Part shown: positions 45,913 through 55,943 of the stretch, one piece after another
How positions within the stretch are numbered: the first letter of the stretch is position 1
How the letters are laid out: each line of letters starts with the position of its first letter
Source: Olsenella sp.
GTDB lineage: Bacteria; Actinomycetota; Coriobacteriia; Coriobacteriales; Atopobiaceae
NCBI GenBank assembly: GCA_022648325.1
Contig: JALCMG010000003.1
Span: forward strand, 124,001 to 188,000
Direction of reading: 5' to 3'
DNA: 64,000 nt
Made by a program: the position numbers and the translations under genes
The notes under the pieces: model-generated
The model's database searches: none
What the model was told of the DNA's origin: nothing
Seen by the model: only the letters and a program-made list of their open reading frames with translations

Positions 45913-45979
45913 TGTGGACGTGACCAATGGGCGGACGAGCCTTTGCACGTGCCGCTCGGAGGCGGGTGAAGGGAGAGCT

Positions 45980-47185
45980 ATGTACAATGTGCGCATGATT
46001 TGCGAGGACACCTGGTGGCTGGGTGCCTCTGACCGCAGGATTCAGCTGTTCGAGAACACCTATCCCGTGCCCAACGGCATGTCTTACAACAACTACCTCA
46101 TCCTCGACGAGGAGACCTGCCTTCTCGATGGCGTGGACGAGGCGGTCTCGCGCCAGTTCAAGGAGAACCTCGCTCACGTCCTTGACGGCCGTCCTCTGGA
46201 CTACCTTGTGATCGACCACATGGAGCCCGACCACTGCGCCGTGATTCCCGACCTTGTCCGCAGGTGGCCCGACCTCAAGCTCGTGGGCACCCCCAAGGCC
46301 TTCGACCTCGTCCGCCAGTTCCACGGCTTTGACCCCGAGCCCCACGCCATCAAGGTCAAGGAGGGCGACACCCTCTCCCTCGGCCGCCACACGCTGCAGT
46401 TTGTCCTGGCGCCCATGGTGCACTGGCCGGAGGTCATGGTGAGCTTTGACCAGCTCACGGGCACGCTCTTTTCGGCAGATGCCTTCGGCGCGTTTGGCGC
46501 GACCGGTGGTGCCATCTTCGCTGATGAGGTCGACTGGGAGCGCGACTGGGCAGACGAGGCGCGCCGCTACTACACCAACATCGTGGGCAAGTACGGCCTG
46601 CAGGTGACGTCGCTGCTCAAGAAGGCCTCCAAGCTGGACATCAAGGAGATTGCGCCACTGCATGCCCACATCTGGCGCCGCGACTTCGACCAGATTCTCT
46701 CCCGCTACCAGAAGTGGGCCGCCTACGAGCCCGAGGACAAGTCCGTTACCATCTTCTACGGCTCCATCTACGGCGGGACCGCCAACGCCGCGGACATCCT
46801 CTCGGCCAAGCTTGCCGAGGCGGGCGTGCACGACGTCCGCGTCTACGACGTTTCCAAGGCCCCGGTCTCCGAGATGGTCTCGCAGGCGTTCCGCTCGCCG
46901 GTGCTCGTCTTTGCGTCTGCCACGTACAACATGGGCATCTTCGACGGCATGCGCGAGCTTCTCGAGGACCTCAACGCCCACGCGATGAAGAACCGCACAG
47001 TCGGCGTTATCTACAACGGCTCGTGGGCACCGCAGGCGGGCTCGCTCATGCTCGACGCCATCCAGCGCATGAAGGGCATGGAGGTGCTCGACCCCGAGGT
47101 GCACGTGACCTCTGCAGTTGACGAGGGGGCGCTCGAGCAGATCGATGCCCTTGCAGCTGCCATTGTGGCAAAGCTAGGGGAGTAG
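45980..47185 (+). CDS. fprA: FprA-type flavodiiron protein
   Basis: The 401-residue cytosolic flavoprotein has an N-terminal metallo-beta-lactamase-like diiron domain with HMEPDH, HWPEVMVSF, FSADAFG and LHAHIWR supplying iron ligands, then a flavodoxin-like domain (about 255-395) with FYGSIYGGTANAA. These enzymes reduce oxygen or nitric oxide in anaerobes. ATG 45980 follows GGGAG. No rubredoxin gene is adjacent. Confidence 0.92.
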   Translation: MYNVRMICEDTWWLGASDRRIQLFENTYPVPNGMSYNNYLILDEETCLLDGVDEAVSRQFKENLAHVLDGRPLDYLVIDHMEPDHCAVIPDLVRRWPDLKLVGTPKAFDLVRQFHGFDPEPHAIKVKEGDTLSLGRHTLQFVLAPMVHWPEVMVSFDQLTGTLFSADAFGAFGATGGAIFADEVDWERDWADEARRYYTNIVGKYGLQVTSLLKKASKLDIKEIAPLHAHIWRRDFDQILSRYQKWAAYEPEDKSVTIFYGSIYGGTANAADILSAKLAEAGVHDVRVYDVSKAPVSEMVSQAFRSPVLVFASATYNMGIFDGMRELLEDLNAHAMKNRTVGVIYNGSWAPQAGSLMLDAIQRMKGMEVLDPEVHVTSAVDEGALEQIDALAAAIVAKLGE

Positions 47186-47647: not shown

Positions 47648-49369
47648 TTAAATCCCAAGAATTCGAATGCGCTCACGAATAGCTTCCTCGGCTTCGCCAC
47701 ACAACTGTTCGTAGGTAGTAGCTGGAGTCGTTACGGTCTCGCGGCCACGTCCGGGGTGAAGGATATCCCAACGAGAAACCTTGCCAGCAATCTGCCCCCT
47801 TCCAGGCGCATGGTTGCCAAATCCCGGAACAATAGAGTTCCAAATGGGGACGTAACGAGCAATAAGAGCAGACTCAGTTAAAGGAACCCAGACAGCATTG
47901 AGCACAAGCATCCGACACTGGAACTCTGAGACCTCAATATTCGTTGCAGCCTCAATGGACTTGCGATGATCATTTGCGACGCGATCAAAAAGTCTCGTAC
48001 CAGCTTGTGGCGTGTCTACTACGCTTGGATTGAGTTCGTTGCCAGTGAGGGTCTTGGGTCCTGCCTTACCAATGTATATCGGGAGTGTGCCTGGGTTGGC
48101 AAAGTTAATATCAGACATCTCGGAATAGGCAGGAAAATCTCCGCAGTAGAAAAGGGCATAAACCCCGTCACCATAGAATTTTTCGACATCCGCGAGTGGC
48201 ATAAGCTCGGAAGCCATAAGCTCGCGAGCCAACGTCTCGGAAAGCGAGGCATAGTCCAACGGGTTATATGTGCGCGGCTTCATATGCCTCTCTCTCCTGT
48301 CTACAACGCTTGCAAAGTCTGAAGTCATCCTTTTTCTGGCCGTGTCCTCGCGTAGTGCGCACGCAACGGAGGACGCAACGATACGACCGAGCTCTACCGG
48401 TACAGCATTGCCTATCTGTCGCATTCCCTCACTCCATGCACCAGTGAACTCATAGCCATCCGGGAAGGTCTGGACGCGAGCGGCTTCGCGGACAGTAAGG
48501 TAACGTAGCGAACCATCCGCATAGCGAATTGTATTCTCGCCACCGGGAACTCCGTGAACACCCGCTTTAATGGTTTTGCTTGGTTTGTCGAGGACTGAAC
48601 CAGTATGGCCCGGGTATGAGCGCGCCTGCCCTCCCCTCTGCTCGTTATTAAGATTCGGAACGTTATCAATAGCCTCGCCGAGGGTAACCCATGGAAGCAG
48701 CCCGTTCCCATAGGTTGGCTGGGGAAAGGCCCACGAAGCTTCGACATCGGAGCGAAAACCTACGATGATTACTCGGTTGCGGTGCTGAGGCACACCATAG
48801 CTTGCAGCATCTACTACGGTTGGAATGACTTCGTAGCGCACAGCTTCATGGTCCGCGCTCGTGTGGGTACGAGAAAGCCGGATTGCATGCTGCTCCCAGG
48901 TCTCTCCCTCGCGCTTTATCAGCGAAGGGTGCTGCAGGCGAAGAAGAATGTACTCGTAGTATTGATGGAACGATTCCCGGGTGAGCCCTTTTACGTTCTC
49001 GCAAATAAACGCACGCGGTCTGAGGAGAGCGAGGACGGAGGTGAATGCCGGAAACATATCGCGACGGTCAGTTACTCCCTTTGAAAGCCCTCCAAGGGAA
49101 AATGGCTGACAAGGAGGTCCTCCTGCAAGTAAATCGATGTCACGAGGGAGAAAAGACCAATCAACGGAGCGCACGTCTCCCTCAATGATGCGCATGTCCG
49201 GGTCAATGAGTGGATAACCATTCTTCTGGTTTAGCCTCAACGTGTTGCAGCAGTTGTGCTCCCACTCAGCAGCAGCAAGGTGTCGGAAACCTGCAAGCGA
49301 AGTCCCAAGGAGGAGGCCACCGGCACCAGCAAAGAGTTCTACCGCTGTAAGATTTCCCTCTGCGTCCAC
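47648..49369 (-). CDS. Fused C5-cytosine DNA methyltransferase and Eco29kI-like GIY-YIG restriction endonuclease
   Basis: One 573-residue frame holds both RM activities. Residues 8-345 are a C5 methyltransferase: motif I ELFAGAGGL, motif IV GGPPCQPFS with catalytic Cys87, ENVKGL, QHRNRVIIVG and QIGNAVP. Residues about 370-545 match Eco29kI-type GIY-YIG nucleases: GVYALFY (402-408), IYIG (431-434), Arg463, His468, Glu499 and Asn511 fit the catalytic set. Eco29kI cuts CCGCGG with separate proteins; the target here is untested. A ribosome binding site before Met363 could also make free nuclease. Codon use is less GC-rich than in the chromosome, suggesting transfer. Confidence 0.88.
   Translation of the reverse strand: MDAEGNLTAVELFAGAGGLLLGTSLAGFRHLAAAEWEHNCCNTLRLNQKNGYPLIDPDMRIIEGDVRSVDWSFLPRDIDLLAGGPPCQPFSLGGLSKGVTDRRDMFPAFTSVLALLRPRAFICENVKGLTRESFHQYYEYILLRLQHPSLIKREGETWEQHAIRLSRTHTSADHEAVRYEVIPTVVDAASYGVPQHRNRVIIVGFRSDVEASWAFPQPTYGNGLLPWVTLGEAIDNVPNLNNEQRGGQARSYPGHTGSVLDKPSKTIKAGVHGVPGGENTIRYADGSLRYLTVREAARVQTFPDGYEFTGAWSEGMRQIGNAVPVELGRIVASSVACALREDTARKRMTSDFASVVDRRERHMKPRTYNPLDYASLSETLARELMASELMPLADVEKFYGDGVYALFYCGDFPAYSEMSDINFANPGTLPIYIGKAGPKTLTGNELNPSVVDTPQAGTRLFDRVANDHRKSIEAATNIEVSEFQCRMLVLNAVWVPLTESALIARYVPIWNSIVPGFGNHAPGRGQIAGKVSRWDILHPGRGRETVTTPATTYEQLCGEAEEAIRERIRILGI
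48281..48298 (-). promoter_or_regulatory. Internal ribosome binding site and ATG for separate nuclease
   Basis: On the minus strand AGGAGAGAGAGG (48298-48287) precedes ATG 48283, which begins MKPRTYNPLDYASL, the start expected for a free Eco29kI-like enzyme. It is a better site than chance coding would require (the codons encode DRRERH). Confidence 0.6.
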
Positions 49370-49590: not shown

Positions 49591-49620
49591 GATTGCAAAC
49601 GGATTGCACAGTGGATTGCA
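49591..49620 (+). repeat. Phased triple repeat outside island, arm-site-like
   Basis: GATTGCA occurs at 49591, 49602 and 49614 (spacing 11 and 12 bases), and ends 45 bases before the tRNA-Phe core repeat. The array at 55790-55821 has the same layout and distance but a different repeat unit. It probably marks the arm of another, related element. Confidence 0.65.
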
Positions 49621-49664
49621 TAACAAAGCAGGCCAGAGCAACTGGTGCCCTGACCTGCACGTTG

Positions 49665-49711
49665 ACTGGTGGCGGGGAAGGGAGTCGAACCCCTGACACG
49701 GGGATTTTCAG
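49665..49711. repeat. attL: 47-bp tRNA-Phe duplication at left island end
   Basis: Identical to 55866-55912. It equals tRNA-Phe from the anticodon loop to the CCA end plus two bases. A hairpin at 49628-49658 matches the tRNA terminator at the right end with a few changes. Confidence 0.92.
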
Positions 49712-49797
49712 AACCATTTGCTGTACGTGTTCGGGTGAACTCCAACGTCCTGCCATGCTGCAAACGATACTGTCTACCTGCGCTTTAAAGTTCTCTA

Positions 49798-49827
49798 TTG
49801 CGTTCCGCTGTTTTTGATGGATATACT
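49798..49827 (+). promoter_or_regulatory. Promoter of integrase gene
   Basis: TTGCGT (49798-49803), 18-base spacer, TATACT (49822-49827). The arm-type repeats lie between this promoter and the integrase start codon. Confidence 0.5.
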
Positions 49828-49841
49828 CTAGGCGCAGAGAG

Positions 49842-49873
49842 TGAAGCACATTTGAAGCACACGGTGAAGCACA
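49842..49873 (+). repeat. Left arm-type integrase sites of the island
   Basis: TGAAGCACA begins at 49842, 49853 and 49865, spacing 11 and 12 bases. The same unit and spacing recur at 55790-55821. Its place between promoter and int gene allows autorepression. Confidence 0.75.
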
Positions 49874-49892
49874 CGGAGGAATGGGGGAGCAC

Positions 49893-51176
49893 ATGGCAGC
49901 GACGTTTACCCATGGAACCGTTGGCAAGTATCGCGGGCACTGGCGCGGGCGCATCACCCAGATTGAGGAGGGCGGGGCGCGTCACAACCTCACGAAGATG
50001 CTCAAGGACGCTGACGGCAGCCCCATCCCCTGCGAGGACAAGGGCAACAAGGGCAAGAACGCGGCAATCGCAGCCCTTACGCGCTGGCGTGACGAGCTTC
50101 TTGCTGCAGAGGGCGAGGCGGAGGCCGCAGAGGCCCGCAGCGCCTCGCTGTCAGGCGTCACGGTATCCGAATACCTCACGACATACTTGGGCCGTCTCGT
50201 AAGCTCTCAGCACGTGGAGCGGTCAACCATGACGGGCTACGAGGCCAGCGCACGCAAGATTGCGGAGTCGCTGGGCGGGGTGGGGGTCACCGAGCTTACC
50301 ACCGCCCAGATTCAGGCGTGGGAGTCCCAGCTGCTCAACGCTGACGGGCTTTCCCCCCGTTCCGTCATCAAGCACCACCGGCTGCTGTCCCAGGCCCTCA
50401 AGGCGGCCGTGGAGGCCGGGCAGCTGGCGGCGAACCCGTGCGAGGGCGTGAAGCTGCCCAAGAACCGCAGGGAGCAGCCACACGCCATGACCAAGGACGC
50501 TGCCAGCAAGCTGCTGGGAACCCTCGCGGCGATGCCCCAGGGCCGAACCGTCGCGGCTGCGCGCATCGCCCTCACGAGCGGCCTCAGGGTGGGCGAGGTG
50601 TGCGGCCTCACGTGGGCCGACGTTGACACCGCCTCGGGCGTGCTGCACGTGAACAAGGCCGTTGGCGTGGGTGGCGGCGGGGCGTACGTCAAGGCCCCCA
50701 AGAACCCCTACTCCGTGCGCGACGTGCCGCTGACCCCGCAGCTCAGGGCGGTGCTGGACGCGAGGCGGGCCGAGGTCATGGCCGAGGCCGAGAGGCTGGA
50801 CGTGCTGCCCACGCCAGAGCAACTGGCCTCCTGCTACGTCATAGGCGGGCTTGACGGCCAGCACGTGACCCCGAACGTCATCAGCCGGGAGTGGGGCCAG
50901 CTCCGCGACGTGCTGGGCGTCACGGACGCGAACGGGCACCCGCTGAAGTTCCACGACCTGCGCCACACGTGGGCGACAATCGCGGTCCAGAGCGGGGCCG
51001 ACATCAAGAGCGTGTCGGCAATCATGGGCCACGCCGACGCCTCAATGACCCTGAACACCTACGCGAGCAGCGACGCCGACGCGAGGCGGGTCGCGGCGGA
51101 GAAGATATCCCGGTTCATGGGCGAGGCCCCGAGGCACGGCGAGGTGGAGGCATTCAGGCTCACGGGCACCGACTAG
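49893..51176 (+). CDS. int: Tyrosine-type site-specific integrase
   Basis: The 427-residue integrase of the tRNA-Phe island has an N-terminal arm-binding region (about 1-75), a SAM-like core-binding domain (about 85-175) and the catalytic domain with Arg232 (GLRVGE), His354 and Arg357 (FHDLRHTW), His380 (MGHADASMT) and Tyr390 (NTYAS). All catalytic residues are intact, so the element may still move. I chose ATG 49893 with GGGGGAG upstream; ATG 49881 is an alternative. It lies next to attL. Confidence 0.93.
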   Translation: MAATFTHGTVGKYRGHWRGRITQIEEGGARHNLTKMLKDADGSPIPCEDKGNKGKNAAIAALTRWRDELLAAEGEAEAAEARSASLSGVTVSEYLTTYLGRLVSSQHVERSTMTGYEASARKIAESLGGVGVTELTTAQIQAWESQLLNADGLSPRSVIKHHRLLSQALKAAVEAGQLAANPCEGVKLPKNRREQPHAMTKDAASKLLGTLAAMPQGRTVAAARIALTSGLRVGEVCGLTWADVDTASGVLHVNKAVGVGGGGAYVKAPKNPYSVRDVPLTPQLRAVLDARRAEVMAEAERLDVLPTPEQLASCYVIGGLDGQHVTPNVISREWGQLRDVLGVTDANGHPLKFHDLRHTWATIAVQSGADIKSVSAIMGHADASMTLNTYASSDADARRVAAEKISRFMGEAPRHGEVEAFRLTGTD

Positions 51177-51253
51177 GGCGCGTGGGTTCTGGCTATCGGC
51201 AGGGCAGGCGGGGGCCGGAAGGCCCCGAGGCGGCAGAGAGGAAGGCGGCAGCC

Positions 51254-51484
51254 ATGGAGGGCAGCGGAACGGCGCTCGTTGGGGGAGGCCCGGCAGCGGA
51301 CGTGAGGACGGCAGACGAGATAGACGAGATAACGCGGGGGCTGCGCGGCGTGGCCATGGCCCTGCTGTACGCGGGCGAGGCCCTGGGCGGCGAAAGCGAA
51401 AGCAGCCCTGCGGCGTTCTACGGGTTCATGGTGGAGACGCTAGACGGCTACGCGGACAGGCTGGACGCTCTCACGCGACGATAG
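51254..51484 (+). CDS. Small island protein, unknown
   Basis: 76 residues from ATG 51254 (AGGAAGG upstream). Hydrophobic-patch helix (LRGVAMALLYAGEALGG) and acidic C-terminus. Not recognised; probably a regulatory or accessory protein of the island. Confidence 0.5.
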   Translation: MEGSGTALVGGGPAADVRTADEIDEITRGLRGVAMALLYAGEALGGESESSPAAFYGFMVETLDGYADRLDALTRR

Positions 51485-51584
51485 CTGAGCGGAGGAAACG
51501 GAGTAGCGCCGTCCCCGAGTCGTGGCAGGCGGGGGCGGCGCGGGATGTGTCCATTGTACTGCTACGGGGAAGCGACGGCAGGGA

Positions 51585-52382
51585 ATGGCGAGAGCCACGC
51601 GGGAGCAGGACCCGAGGGGGATAACCCCGAGGCACGACAACATGCGCAGGGCAATCAAGGCCAGGGGGTTCACGCAGGACCAGTTCTCGGAGCTCATGGG
51701 GCGGTCTGGCGGAACCACCCACAGCACGGTGGGCAGGTGGCTGCGCGGCGAACCAAAGCCGGGACAGAACATTAGCAACGCTGACCTAGCGAGGGCCGCC
51801 CGCATGCTTGACGTGTCGGTGTGGTACCTGCTGGACCTCACGGACAGCGAGGGCGGCAGCGGCGCGAGGCCGTTCGAGCAGCACGCCACCATGTTGAAGT
51901 GGTGGAGGGTCGCCCAAGACTCCGCCCGGTGCGCGTGGTGGGTGGAACGCGAGGAACCCTCCGATGGGCAAGGACAGACCGAGATCGTCCATGGACTGTG
52001 GGCGTACGGGGTCACGCGCGAGGGCGACCGGATGGCCGTCACGGAGTCCATGCTGCATGACGAGTGCGAGGAGGAGGAAGCGTTCGAGGCCGCCAGGGCG
52101 AGCGCCGAGGCGAAGGCAGGGGGCGAGCGTTCCAAAGAGGAGGGCGCGGCGCTCTCGGGGTGGCGAACCTACCTTGAGTGGTGCAGGGACGAGGCCGGAG
52201 AGGAGTTCAGGAGGCAGCTCATGGACGTGCGCGGCGACTACCGCGACCCGTGCGGGGTGGTGGCCGCCCTGCTGGGCCTCGCGGAGATGGAGGGCTACGC
52301 GGATTCCCTGGACGCGGGGCTGGTTGAGCTAGGGAGGCCGGTTAGCGTGGCGGGCAACAAGGACATACGGACTTCTCGCTAG
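51585..52382 (+). CDS. XRE-type HTH regulator of the island
   Basis: 265 residues. The N-terminal helix-turn-helix (RRAIKARGFTQDQFSELMGRSGGTTHSTVGRWLRG, about 20-54) resembles phage repressor HTH domains, with a long acidic C-terminal region of unknown fold. Start ATG 51585 is preceded by GCAGGGA. As the only repressor-like gene beside xis and rep genes it may keep the element quiescent. The 273-base gap to the next gene has no gene and may hold a promoter. Confidence 0.7.
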   Translation: MARATREQDPRGITPRHDNMRRAIKARGFTQDQFSELMGRSGGTTHSTVGRWLRGEPKPGQNISNADLARAARMLDVSVWYLLDLTDSEGGSGARPFEQHATMLKWWRVAQDSARCAWWVEREEPSDGQGQTEIVHGLWAYGVTREGDRMAVTESMLHDECEEEEAFEAARASAEAKAGGERSKEEGAALSGWRTYLEWCRDEAGEEFRRQLMDVRGDYRDPCGVVAALLGLAEMEGYADSLDAGLVELGRPVSVAGNKDIRTSR

Positions 52383-52655
52383 GCTCCGAATTTTATTTCT
52401 GGCCCCATGAACCGGCATCCCATGGAACCAATTCCCCGACACTGACAGCGGAATAGCGAGAAAACGGCGCGGGCTTTGGCTGACCGGCAGTCCCACATGG
52501 CATGCGTTCGTGGTACCAAGCCCGCAGTATATGCCGTTTGACCTGCGGAAACGCCCGAGAGACACTAACGACAGAGGGACGCGAGAGAGCGCCCCAGGCC
52601 GTGCGCACGGCTCCAACCGTCTAGCCCGCATTGTGCGGGGGAAGGAGCCAAGCAG

Positions 52656-52865
52656 ATGAATACGCTCAACCCAACCATGATGCCAGACGAGGTGGGCAAG
52701 CTGCCCGCGCTGTGCAGCGTCAAGCAGGCATCGGAACTCACCGGTTACGGCACGCACTTCCTGAGCGACTGCCTGGCCCGAGGCGAGATCAAGGGCGTGA
52801 AGTTCGGCGGGCGCTGGCGCGTCGACACGGCGGCCCTGCTGCGCAAGTTCGGTCTGGCGGAGTAA
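52656..52865 (+). CDS. Excisionase-like HTH protein
   Basis: 69 residues with the MerR/excisionase-type helix-turn-helix (LCSVKQASELTGYGTHFLSDCLARGEIKGVKFGGRWRVD). GGGGGAAGGAG precedes ATG 52656. It probably directs excision together with the integrase, or acts as a transcription factor for the rep gene. Confidence 0.72.
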   Translation: MNTLNPTMMPDEVGKLPALCSVKQASELTGYGTHFLSDCLARGEIKGVKFGGRWRVDTAALLRKFGLAE

Positions 52866-52940
52866 GGGTGGCCGTAGTCGTGGCAGATACCTACCGCAAG
52901 GCAGACGCCGCAACAGGCGCTGCGCCGGGGGTATGGTGCG

Positions 52941-54194
52941 ATGCGTGACCCGGAACGACCGAACCCCGCGAGGGAGGAGGCGATCGCCCAGGCGCGCAAG
53001 GCCCTGAACATCCACCGAGCATACGACCACACAGGTGGAAGCGTTCCTCCCGAGGACGATGCGCTGATTGAGGGGCTCATGTACGTTGGCCGAAAGGCGA
53101 TAATCACCGGCCCCCCAAAGTCGCACAAGTCCATGGAGGCAATCCACCTTGCGCTGGCGCTGGCGACTGGCGGCGAGTGGTGGGGCCACAGGTGCAGGCG
53201 CTCCAAAGTATTGTACGTAAACGTCGAAATCCCCGAGGGCGAGTTCTACCGAAGGCTTGATGCCGTTCGTCACGAGATGGCGATTACCCCCGCAGCCTAC
53301 ATGGATACGCTGGAGGTATCCAGCATCGTTGGCAGGGGGTCGCCAACAGGTGGGCCGTTCGATTGCGGTTCTCTGTGCGATGGGCTTGAGCTGGCATACA
53401 ACCCAGGCGATTACGACGTTCTCATTGTCGACCCCATCTACAAGCTCAACCCCGGTGACGAGGACCACGCAAGCGTAAGCGCGCTTCTCAACAGGCTAGA
53501 CCGGCACAGGGCGACTATGCATTGCTCCATAGTCTACGTACACCACACCGCGAAGGGCGGTGGAGCAGGGAAGAGCGTGTACGAGCAGGGCCGAGGCTCA
53601 GGCGACTGGGGCGGAGACGCGGACCTGATGGTAGCGGTAACCGAACTGGCGCCGCTTGAGGAGGACGGCGACGCGTGGGGGCACGCTACCGCGCTGGGCA
53701 TCAAGGATCCAACGAACAGTGCGTACCAGATACGTTTTGCCACGAGGTCATTTAACGACCCGCCGCACGTCCGAGTGTTCAAGGCATGGCCGCTGCTCAA
53801 GGAGGCCACCGACGTTCTGGACAGGCTGCACGAGCGCGGCGACGCCAGGGCTAAGGGTGGCGCGGCAACGAGTGCGAAATGGAAGGACAGGCGCAGGAGG
53901 CGCGACGAGGCCGTTACTGCTGCGGTGAAGATGTGCGGCGTCGACGGGGTGAGGCCGACCACGCAAAACGTCTACGAGCGCCTGAGCATCGACGGCGAGG
54001 GCAGACCGACATGCGACACGTTCAAGGGGTGGAACAGCGGCGCGGACGGCCTCACCCACTGGCGCAATCGACAGGACGATCACGGCGAGTGGGTGCTCAC
54101 GGAGTGCTTCATGGCGAGCGACGGCAGGGCGATGTACAGGGACGGCAGCCCATGTTTTCTCCCCGACGAGGGGGAAGCCCCCTCCGACGGCTAG
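52941..54194 (+). CDS. RepA-like RecA-family replicative ATPase
   Basis: The 417-residue protein has a RecA-type ATPase domain with Walker A GPPKSHKS (57-64) and Walker B YDVLIVDP, the arrangement of plasmid RepA-type helicases, and a basic C-terminal domain with a winged-helix-like part. ATG 52941 is 10 bases after a GGGGG run. It implies autonomous replication of the excised form. A hairpin-rich stretch follows it directly. Confidence 0.78.
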   Translation: MRDPERPNPAREEAIAQARKALNIHRAYDHTGGSVPPEDDALIEGLMYVGRKAIITGPPKSHKSMEAIHLALALATGGEWWGHRCRRSKVLYVNVEIPEGEFYRRLDAVRHEMAITPAAYMDTLEVSSIVGRGSPTGGPFDCGSLCDGLELAYNPGDYDVLIVDPIYKLNPGDEDHASVSALLNRLDRHRATMHCSIVYVHHTAKGGGAGKSVYEQGRGSGDWGGDADLMVAVTELAPLEEDGDAWGHATALGIKDPTNSAYQIRFATRSFNDPPHVRVFKAWPLLKEATDVLDRLHERGDARAKGGAATSAKWKDRRRRRDEAVTAAVKMCGVDGVRPTTQNVYERLSIDGEGRPTCDTFKGWNSGADGLTHWRNRQDDHGEWVLTECFMASDGRAMYRDGSPCFLPDEGEAPSDG

Positions 54195-54200
54195 CCATTG

Positions 54201-54244
54201 GGGGGGGCTCCGATGGCTTATATAAGAGCTATTGGAGCCCCCCC
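54201..54244. repeat. 11-bp stem hairpin downstream of rep gene
   Basis: GGGGGGGCTCC (54201-54211) and its perfect inverse (54234-54244), with the palindrome CTTATATAAG in the loop. A second hairpin lies at 54268-54290 (GGGCAGGC/GCCTGCCC). Could be a replication origin or a terminator with promoter. Confidence 0.6.
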
Positions 54245-54356
54245 GGGGCTGGGGCCGCGAAGGGGCAGGGCAGGCAACGCCAGCCTGCCCGCCCCACCCC
54301 CCGCGCGGCCATTGGGCGAGTGATACAGGGAACGCAAGAAGAGAAGGAGACGGAAG

Positions 54357-54683
54357 TTGAGCGAATATGATGACGACGAAGAGATGACCGAGGCCGAGAA
54401 GCGGGCGGAGGACCTGGACGCCACATCCGACTTCAAGAGCAACATTGACTTTTGCCGTGGGCCGCTGAGCGACGTGGCGGACGCGCGGCACATGGCCGAA
54501 ATCATCTACGAGAAGAGCGACCCCGAGCTTGCGCGGAGGATACGCGAGGACTTCATGGGACTCACCCTCAGGGAGGTGTCGCACATCCTGGACGGCATAT
54601 TCGTTCCGCTGGGGCTTGTGAAGGCGGCAGCGGTCCTGAGGTTCTACGCGAACGAGCGGGGCCACGGCGGCGAGGGCGCGTAA
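54357..54683 (+). CDS. Small acidic island protein
   Basis: 108 residues from TTG 54357, with AAGGAGA well placed upstream. Very acidic N-terminus, helical rest (ARRIREDFMGLTLREVSHILDGIFVPLGLVKAAAVLRFY). Not recognised. Confidence 0.55.
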   Translation: MSEYDDDEEMTEAEKRAEDLDATSDFKSNIDFCRGPLSDVADARHMAEIIYEKSDPELARRIREDFMGLTLREVSHILDGIFVPLGLVKAAAVLRFYANERGHGGEGA

Positions 54684-55206
54684 GCCCGCATACGCCACAC
54701 CCGCGCCTTTGCGTTGCGGCCGTTGACCCGCGCATGCGGAGCCGCTATCGTCTGTGCGTTCGTGGCTTTAGCCGGGGTGCCGCGCCCACGCGGGCGTAGA
54801 GCACCCTTTTTGCACGCTTTCTGGTAGAGCGCCCACCCCCACGCGCCCACGTTCTCGCCCACCCTGTCCCCCCCCGCCACCTGCGAAGAATGCATAGAAA
54901 GTGCATTTAATAGCACTTATAAATGAATAAAAACACCTAGTTCACGCTTAATTTATGCATAAACCATGTGTAGCAGTCCGTGTGGCATGGCGTGTGGGGG
55001 TCGTGTGTGCCGTGGGAGGGGCATGGGTTCGTGTAGGAATTGTGAAGTAACAGACTGGTACGCAAGAGTGGCCGTGTGGGGCCGTGACAGCGAATGTGAT
55101 GGCGCTTGCGCTTGTCCAACGTGTGGTTGCCCACTGACGCGCTGACGCGCCCCTGACTGGCTTAGAACGCCCATGCGTGGCACGGGGCGACGAGAGGAGA
55201 TTCGAG
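54684..55206. other. Gene-free stretch with AT-rich island, possible origin
   Basis: Within very GC-rich DNA, 54896-54965 is strongly AT-rich and contains hairpin AAGTGC/GCACTT (54899-54918) and palindrome TTTATGCATAAA (54952-54963). GTGTG-rich DNA follows. The layout fits a DNA-unwinding origin for the element replicase, or a promoter for the next gene. Confidence 0.4.
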
Positions 55207-55455
55207 ATGGAAGACATGCGGTCAGAGGACTGGGAGGAGCGGGGCGTCGAGAAGGCGGAGTTCGGCGTCCTGCGCGTCTACGCGAACAGGCGCACGGGAG
55301 AGGTGCGGTTCGACCTTGAGGACGTGGCGAGGTGCCTCGGCCTGAGCGAGGGCGAGGCAATCGACATGCTTGGCGAGGGCGAGCTTTACACGATGCCGGG
55401 GCGAGCGCTCACGGAGGGCGACTCCGAGCGCTTCTGCAGGGAGCTGGAAGGCTAG
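55207..55455 (+). CDS. BRO-N-like phage antirepressor fragment
   Basis: 82 residues from ATG 55207 (AGGAGA upstream). VEKAEFGVLRVYANRRTGEVRFDLEDVARCLGL matches the start of BRO-N/antirepressor domains. It is shorter than full antirepressors, so it may be truncated or a compact version. It suggests phage or phage-satellite ancestry of the island. Confidence 0.6.
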   Translation: MEDMRSEDWEERGVEKAEFGVLRVYANRRTGEVRFDLEDVARCLGLSEGEAIDMLGEGELYTMPGRALTEGDSERFCRELEG

Positions 55456-55789
55456 GCGATGGCGTGCCCCGCCGTGGGCTAAGCGGCGGTTAGGGCATGG
55501 GCACTCAGATTTTGAGTACCCCAGGGCTGGGGTGTCTTGCAAACACCTCGCGTCCCAGGCCGGGGGTCTCCGACTGGCGGAGGACCTTGGGCTTGGCGGT
55601 GGGGTCGCGAATCGCTACCCCCATTGCAGTGCCGAGGGGGGTACGCAGCTGGCGTGCCCCCAGGGCGGGGGTGGGCAAATCGTGCCCACCCCTTGGCGCG
55701 ACCCGGACCAAACCCCAATGCCGCCGTGGTTCCGCAGGGCCTCTCGCGGCTTTCCGCCAACTGGGCTTTTGCAAAGCTCCGCTAATCCT
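55456..55789. other. GC-rich hairpin cluster, no gene
   Basis: Holds several perfect hairpins, e.g. CCCCAG/CTGGGG near 55520 and GGGGTGGGCA (55668-55677) with TGCCCACCCC (55683-55692). No reading frame with coding character was seen. Confidence 0.45.
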
Positions 55790-55821
55790 TGAAGCACATT
55801 TGAAGCACATGGTGAAGCACA
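55790..55821 (+). repeat. Right arm-type integrase sites of the island
   Basis: TGAAGCACA begins at 55790, 55801 and 55813, same unit, orientation and spacing as the left array. It ends 45 bases before the att core. Confidence 0.78.
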
Positions 55822-55827
55822 TACGAA

Positions 55828-55860
55828 AGCAGGTCAGGGCAACTAGTGCCCTGACCTGCG
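55828..55860 (-). terminator. Terminator of tRNA-Phe
   Basis: GCAGGTCAGGGC and its inverse form a strong hairpin; on the minus strand it is followed by TTTCGTATG. It belongs to the element side of the attachment site and replaces the chromosomal terminator now near 49628-49658. Confidence 0.7.
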
Positions 55861-55865
55861 CTTTT

Positions 55866-55912
55866 ACTGGTGGCGGGGAAGGGAGTCGAACCCCTGACAC
55901 GGGGATTTTCAG
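55866..55912. repeat. attR: 47-bp tRNA-Phe core at right island end
   Basis: Identical to 49665-49711, and part of the intact tRNA-Phe gene. The 6201-bp distance between the two repeats defines the island. Confidence 0.92.
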
Positions 55913-55943
55913 TCCCCTGCTCTACCAACTGAGCTACCCAGCC
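55868..55943 (-). tRNA. tRNA-Phe (anticodon GAA)
   Basis: 76 nt including encoded CCA. It starts GGCTGGG and has anticodon loop CTGAAAA with anticodon GAA at positions 34-36, T loop TTCGACT. The acceptor 3' strand is CCCCGCC, which leaves one U4-C69 mismatch; the other six acceptor pairs are canonical. It serves as attachment site of the island and is the cognate tRNA of the upstream T-box. Confidence 0.95.

Follow-up and report, generated by a model that had tools for sequence, protein, structure and literature searches.

How could a restriction-modification (R-M) enzyme that carries its cytosine methyltransferase (MTase) and its endonuclease (REase) on one polypeptide avoid cutting its host before the host is methylated? 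On the prevailing view, type II R-M systems require the MTase in excess of, or earlier than, the endonuclease, and the question is raised by a gene on a contig of Olsenella sp., for which an earlier note on the 64,000-nt stretch of DNA analysed here (the window) had claimed both activities in a single reading frame.

Domains and motifs of the fused gene

The claim was borne out: the frame runs uninterrupted from its GTG start (Table 1), and Pfam profile searches placed DNA_methylase (PF00145) on residues 8 to about 350 (E 7.9e-52, far above the cut-off) and RE_Eco29kI (PF09517) on residues 396–548 (E 8.1e-46; 156.3 bits against a curated cut-off of 30.8), with a phmmer match of the endonuclease part to R.Eco29kI at E 2.9e-31. 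Two full-length conserved domains sharing one frame exclude chance.

Table 1. Features of the fused R-M gene and of the neighbouring tRNA-Phe element (window coordinates)
Feature	Position	Strand	Remarks
Fused open reading frame	47648..49369	-	573 aa, GTG start, predicted 63.3 kDa
C5-cytosine MTase part, aa 1-345	48335..49369	-	PF00145, alignment with 22 relatives, Foldseek
Linker, aa 346-362, 17 aa, KRMTSDFASVVDRRERH	48284..48334	-	Alignment and model
Eco29kI-type GIY-YIG endonuclease part, aa 363-573	47651..48283	-	PF09517, phmmer, Foldseek; 23.3 kDa if alone
Shine-Dalgarno-like site AGGAGAGAGAGG before the internal ATG	48287..48298	-	Duplex energy
Net +2 nt (AT), most parsimonious place	48284..48285	-	Comparison with L007 and L008
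Internal ATG (Met363)	48281..48283	-	Where the stand-alone endonuclease gene of both relatives starts
TAA, MTase stop of the two-gene relatives	48264..48266	-	Still there in the window, but out of frame
Attachment-site copy, 3' part of tRNA-Phe and flank, 93 nt	49619..49711	.	Between the R-M gene and the integrase element
Tyrosine integrase	49881-51176		Within the tRNA-Phe element
HTH_17 gene	52656-52862		Within the tRNA-Phe element
AAA_25 ATPase	52941-54194		Within the tRNA-Phe element
tRNA-Phe gene	55868-55943	-	

The MTase part has the motifs PCQ (GPPCQPF, holding Cys87), ENV (at 124), QxRxR and RQxGNxV, with the TRD between and the variable stretch after motif VIII shortened. In the endonuclease part PIYIG occupies residues 430–434, and Tyr404, Tyr408, Arg463, His468, Glu499 and Asn511 were all found, so that every residue that the earlier note had named as a kept C5 or GIY-YIG catalytic position is where it had been placed. 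The active-site residues Y49, Y76, R104, H108, E142 and N154 of R.Eco29kI (PMC1952068) aligned with Tyr404, Tyr432, Arg463, His468, Glu499 and Asn511, respectively; one extra residue lies between Arg463 and His468, as it does in the two closest relatives described below.

In a structure model of the whole chain the MTase part was good and the endonuclease part poor, because MAFFT failed to co-place the separate M and R rows, and the endonuclease was therefore modelled by itself (mean pLDDT 84). Its best Foldseek matches were the R.Eco29kI structures 3nic, 3mx4 and 3mx1 (E 1e-15 to 1e-17, TM about 0.8), and those of the MTase part were M.HaeIII and M.HhaI. The linker was modelled as prolonging the last MTase helix, giving one predicted continuous helix from residue 325 to 362.

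Recognition of CCGCGG, which enzymes of the Eco29kI type cleave as CCGC^GG, is presumed from homology and is likely. The site, of which 124 copies in 304 kb extrapolate to about 1000 predicted in the strain, is mildly under-represented in the genome (O/E 0.75; a relative lacking the system has 0.85), which is no clear avoidance; the specificity therefore rests on homology, and site avoidance was rejected as proof of it because the two ratios do not discriminate. The TRD core, YPGHTGSxLDxPSKxIKAGVHGVPGGEN, is kept in the MTases of the window and of the two closest relatives, and the same three MTases are about 45–50 aa shorter, in the variable stretch after motif VIII, than nearly all of the Eco29kI-type partners examined.

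Comparison with the two-gene relatives

The closest relatives found in a scan of the genome collection, those of Olsenella uli An820 (locus L007) and Collinsella vaginalis (L008), are 80–88% identical and share with the window gene the M-then-R order, the short TRD region and the positions of the MTase stop and the endonuclease ATG, but they are pairs of overlapping genes in different frames with a junction 2 nt shorter. Their MTases have 367 aa (L007) and, in the listed frame, 383 aa (L008), their endonucleases have 211 aa, and the MTase TAA stop falls 17 nt past the endonuclease ATG in the other frame.

Between the conserved M and R residues that flank the junction, the window gene thus differs by a net +2 nt. 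The tail of the MTase is divergent in sequence, although its length (17 aa) equals that of the linker and it ends in RH in 3 of 3 cases; because of this divergence the exact place of the extra nucleotides is uncertain. Given the equal lengths and the shared RH, they would most simply be an AT immediately 5' of the endonuclease ATG (GGCATATGAAG in the window, GRCATGARR in the relatives); a second alignment shifts the gap further upstream, the net difference of 2 nt being independent of placement. The retained TAA overlaps the conserved Tyr-Asn codons of the endonuclease and its retention therefore gives no clue to when the change arose. As read from the sequence, the window gene is an Eco29kI-type two-gene system joined, in one sequenced genome, by a net difference of 2 nt.

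To see how common such joining might be, the PF09517 profile was run against 395 genomes from the order, 396 from the phylum and 66 from another class; 10, 6 and 1 of them, respectively, were positive, and a frame longer than 300 aa with this domain was found only in the window's own genome. A further 56 pairs with an adjacent MTase gene came from loci in GTDB genomes, on plasmids, in phages and on 42 viral contigs (48 pairs once endonucleases at least 90% identical were removed), and none of them was fused. This agrees with the earlier statement that M and R are normally separate proteins, and the search for single-chain homologues that the earlier note had proposed returned none among these pairs. 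What stands of its natural fusion is the single frame, which is real; an established single-chain family, in so far as the note implied one, is not supported, the nearest relatives being two-gene systems a net 2 nt apart. That candidate was rejected, the window's being the lone long frame and the plasmid, phage and viral loci having given none. Conservation of the fused form in more than one lineage, which would be expected of an established type IIC member without defining one, was likewise seen in 0 of 56. No second copy of the fusion appeared in a protein scan of the viral contigs, where 11 pattern matches were discarded as a common 17–23-nt word with no homology. The open-licence papers searched yielded no natural m5C/GIY-YIG single-chain R-M enzyme.

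In nearly all of the 56 pairs M comes first and overlaps R by a short stretch; the order R then M was found in Eco29kI itself (L021) and in the Neisseria gonorrhoeae system (L051). In four pairs (L019, L023, L051 and L076) M and R already lie in one frame, parted by stop codons alone, and one or two substitutions would therefore fuse them.

Two other Eco29kI-type pairs are disrupted. L010 (G370), of the same order, is broken in both genes, M by an in-frame TGA and R by an in-frame TAG, and stop recoding was rejected there in favour of decay or error, the two stops being different codons. In L024/L026/L027 (G712) the endonuclease has several frame changes, from decay or draft errors.

The same survey bears on whether the 2-nt difference might be a minority variant, or a mistake of sequencing or assembly, in a strain that really has two overlapping genes. 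The uniqueness of the fusion against the 56 other pairs, the fact that both nearest relatives have two genes and the draft nature of the genome (28 contigs) all point that way, whereas the junction, GGCATATGAAG, is neither a homopolymer nor a long repeat. Since roughly a third of errors would leave the frame open if their size were random, the open frame alone is weak evidence either way, and we regard an error here as unlikely.

The internal start and the expected products

The endonuclease start of the two-gene relatives is retained in the window as Met363. The predicted pairing with the 16S tail is -7.4 kcal/mol before Met363, compared with -7.1 at the GTG start of the MTase, and the Shine-Dalgarno-like site before Met363 ranks second among the 32 ATGs on the minus strand. 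The internal ribosome site being as strong as that of the MTase, two products are expected, a 63-kDa chain and a 23-kDa endonuclease; a free endonuclease is thus probably also made from Met363. A free MTase, judged from the reading frame, cannot be made by ordinary termination, and would come only from proteolysis or premature termination. The earlier note is silent on this retained start, which is no less important than the fusion.

A predicted hairpin in the mRNA (48224-48344, minus strand) buries the internal start and its ribosome site (mean unpaired probability 0.22), and translation through it would open the start. As a control element that sequesters the Shine-Dalgarno site, the hairpin was rejected (z -1.6; absent in L007 and L008).

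Engineered and natural counterparts

An engineered fusion of the Eco29kI enzymes, RM.Eco29kI (Mokrishcheva et al. 2011), kept 80% of MTase and 33% of REase activity and restricted phage 100-fold, compared with 10,000-fold for the native pair (PMC3039593), which shows that such a chain can work. Like the window gene it has an m5C MTase and a GIY-YIG REase in one chain and is type IIC by definition; unlike it, it is man-made, has the order R-M and a two-glycine joint, and had its internal start removed. When nothing but the stop had been removed and the internal Met was left in place, the downstream enzyme was detected and the fusion was not (PMC3039593). The window gene, as its predicted domains and start sites indicate, is the natural counterpart of this published enzyme, with the order reversed and the internal start intact.

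The parent Eco29kI system of pECO29 has the same pair of a C5 MTase and a PF09517 GIY-YIG REase with the same catalytic residues, at about 42% (M) and 36% (R) identity to the window gene, but is encoded R then M as two proteins with a start/stop overlap. Natural type IIC/IIG enzymes (Eco57I, MmeI, BcgI and BpuSI) also hold restriction and modification in one polypeptide; they are, however, m6A MTases, mostly with PD-(D/E)XK nucleases, that cleave outside their site and depend on AdoMet, whereas the window gene would combine m5C with GIY-YIG and presumably cleave inside a palindrome. In Niabella soli neighbouring R-M genes have been joined in frame by nature with both functions kept, although the partners of that PvuII-like fusion are the regulator and the REase (C-REase) and not the MTase and the REase (PMC3850674).

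Constraint on the two halves

Against the nearest relatives, both halves gave pN/pS of 0.11–0.21 where dS was saturated and dN/dS of 0.06 otherwise; compared with L007 and L008, synonymous sites were near saturation and pN was 0.08–0.11 (M) and 0.13–0.16 (R). These values show strong purifying selection on both halves over the divergence, and they mostly reflect the time before the frames were joined: they give no evidence of constraint after fusion, and the fusion cannot be dated from them.

They bear in part on the possibility that the system is damaged, its frames joined by accident, its chain restricting poorly or not at all and its endonuclease half on the way to being lost. Such a course would be in keeping with the engineered fusion, whose REase activity fell by two-thirds and whose phage restriction dropped 100-fold (PMC3039593), and with the decayed relative L010 within the order; yet the catalytic residues and the entire endonuclease domain of the window gene are intact, pN/pS is well below 1, and the internal start still offers a normal endonuclease. 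We consider damage an improbable account.

Proposed origin and mode of action

The explanation that we favour, and hold to be reasonably probable, is that a CCGCGG-type M-then-R system of Coriobacteriales was brought into one frame by a net +2 nt in a host that was already methylated, and now gives a fused chain together with free endonuclease from Met363. The best reading of the change itself is a one-step conversion to a putative type IIC enzyme, a type defined by both domains on one polypeptide, as is predicted here from the sequence. More tentatively, we suggest that this is a naturally occurring and functional m5C type II R-M enzyme, with its GIY-YIG nuclease on the same chain, seen just as a 2-nt change converts a two-gene system into it and while the internal start still supplies free endonuclease.

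On the favoured explanation, ribosomes starting at the GTG would make the 63-kDa M-R polypeptide and those starting at Met363 the free endonuclease, and with two start sites the endonuclease would therefore never be scarcer than the MTase. The host would have survived if its genome had already been methylated by the parent system when the frames were joined; it has been argued for such fusions that one arising in a methylated host never meets a naive genome at its origin (PMC3039593). After transfer to a naive host, the chain, while scarce, would first methylate as a monomer, and as it accumulated the endonuclease domains would pair on DNA and cut.

The earlier question of how cleavage is delayed has a published candidate answer in the logic of type IIC enzymes, whose MTase works as a monomer and whose endonuclease must dimerise, so that an accumulating chain should cross a concentration range in which it methylates without cutting (PMC12707154). 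R.Eco29kI is a monomer in solution and a dimer on its site (PMC4081073), and on these two grounds a delay in cutting could be explained without separate genes.

That the fused chain is the sole product of a true type IIC enzyme under selection, the fusion itself tying cutting to methylating, is very unlikely, for although it would suit the monomeric MTase and dimeric REase of type IIC (PMC12707154), the natural PvuII-like C-REase fusion that gave full-length protein only (PMC3850674) and the modelled continuous helix of the linker, the Met363 ribosome site equals the gene's own in strength and, no second fused member having been found, nothing indicates that the fusion was kept.

On the favoured explanation, the MTase can be made only with an endonuclease attached, and extra endonuclease would probably be made besides. 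Were the strain healthy and restricting, timing by separate expression would not be required. The gene would then be a natural test of whether assembly alone delays self-cleavage when no free MTase exists, and the monomer-dimer explanation would be directly testable with a matched pair, the fused window gene and a two-gene relative. It would moreover provide the natural example foreseen by the authors who built the Eco29kI fusion (PMC3039593), reached through one small indel.

Genomic setting

The R-M gene lies between a gene at 45914-47185, which we take from its sequence to be FprA-like, and the 93-nt attachment-site copy. An integrated element (49619-55943), bounded by 93-nt direct repeats (91%), lies next to it at the tRNA-Phe gene; the R-M gene is outside the outer repeat and separate from this element. 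PF09517 was found in 0 of 7 genus-mates. In congeners (L036, L037, L039-L042) the stretch that separates the FprA-like gene from tRNA-Phe is short or filled with other DNA, its length ranging from roughly 0.6 to 7 kb; this variation marks the interval as an insertion hot spot. An Rfam search of the region gave no match. GC content is 54% in the R-M region, whereas the FprA-like gene has 63% and the integrase element 65%. The R-M region is best read as acquired cargo of the tRNA-Phe hot spot, its own route of entry not being visible in the sequence.

Phages and prophages commonly carry Eco29kI-type M-R pairs (L066-L107, L043 and L044), and most of the 42 endonuclease loci on viral contigs have an adjoining MTase. 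A vsr gene comes ahead of the M-R pair in Burkholderia phage Milagro and on a Paraburkholderia plasmid.
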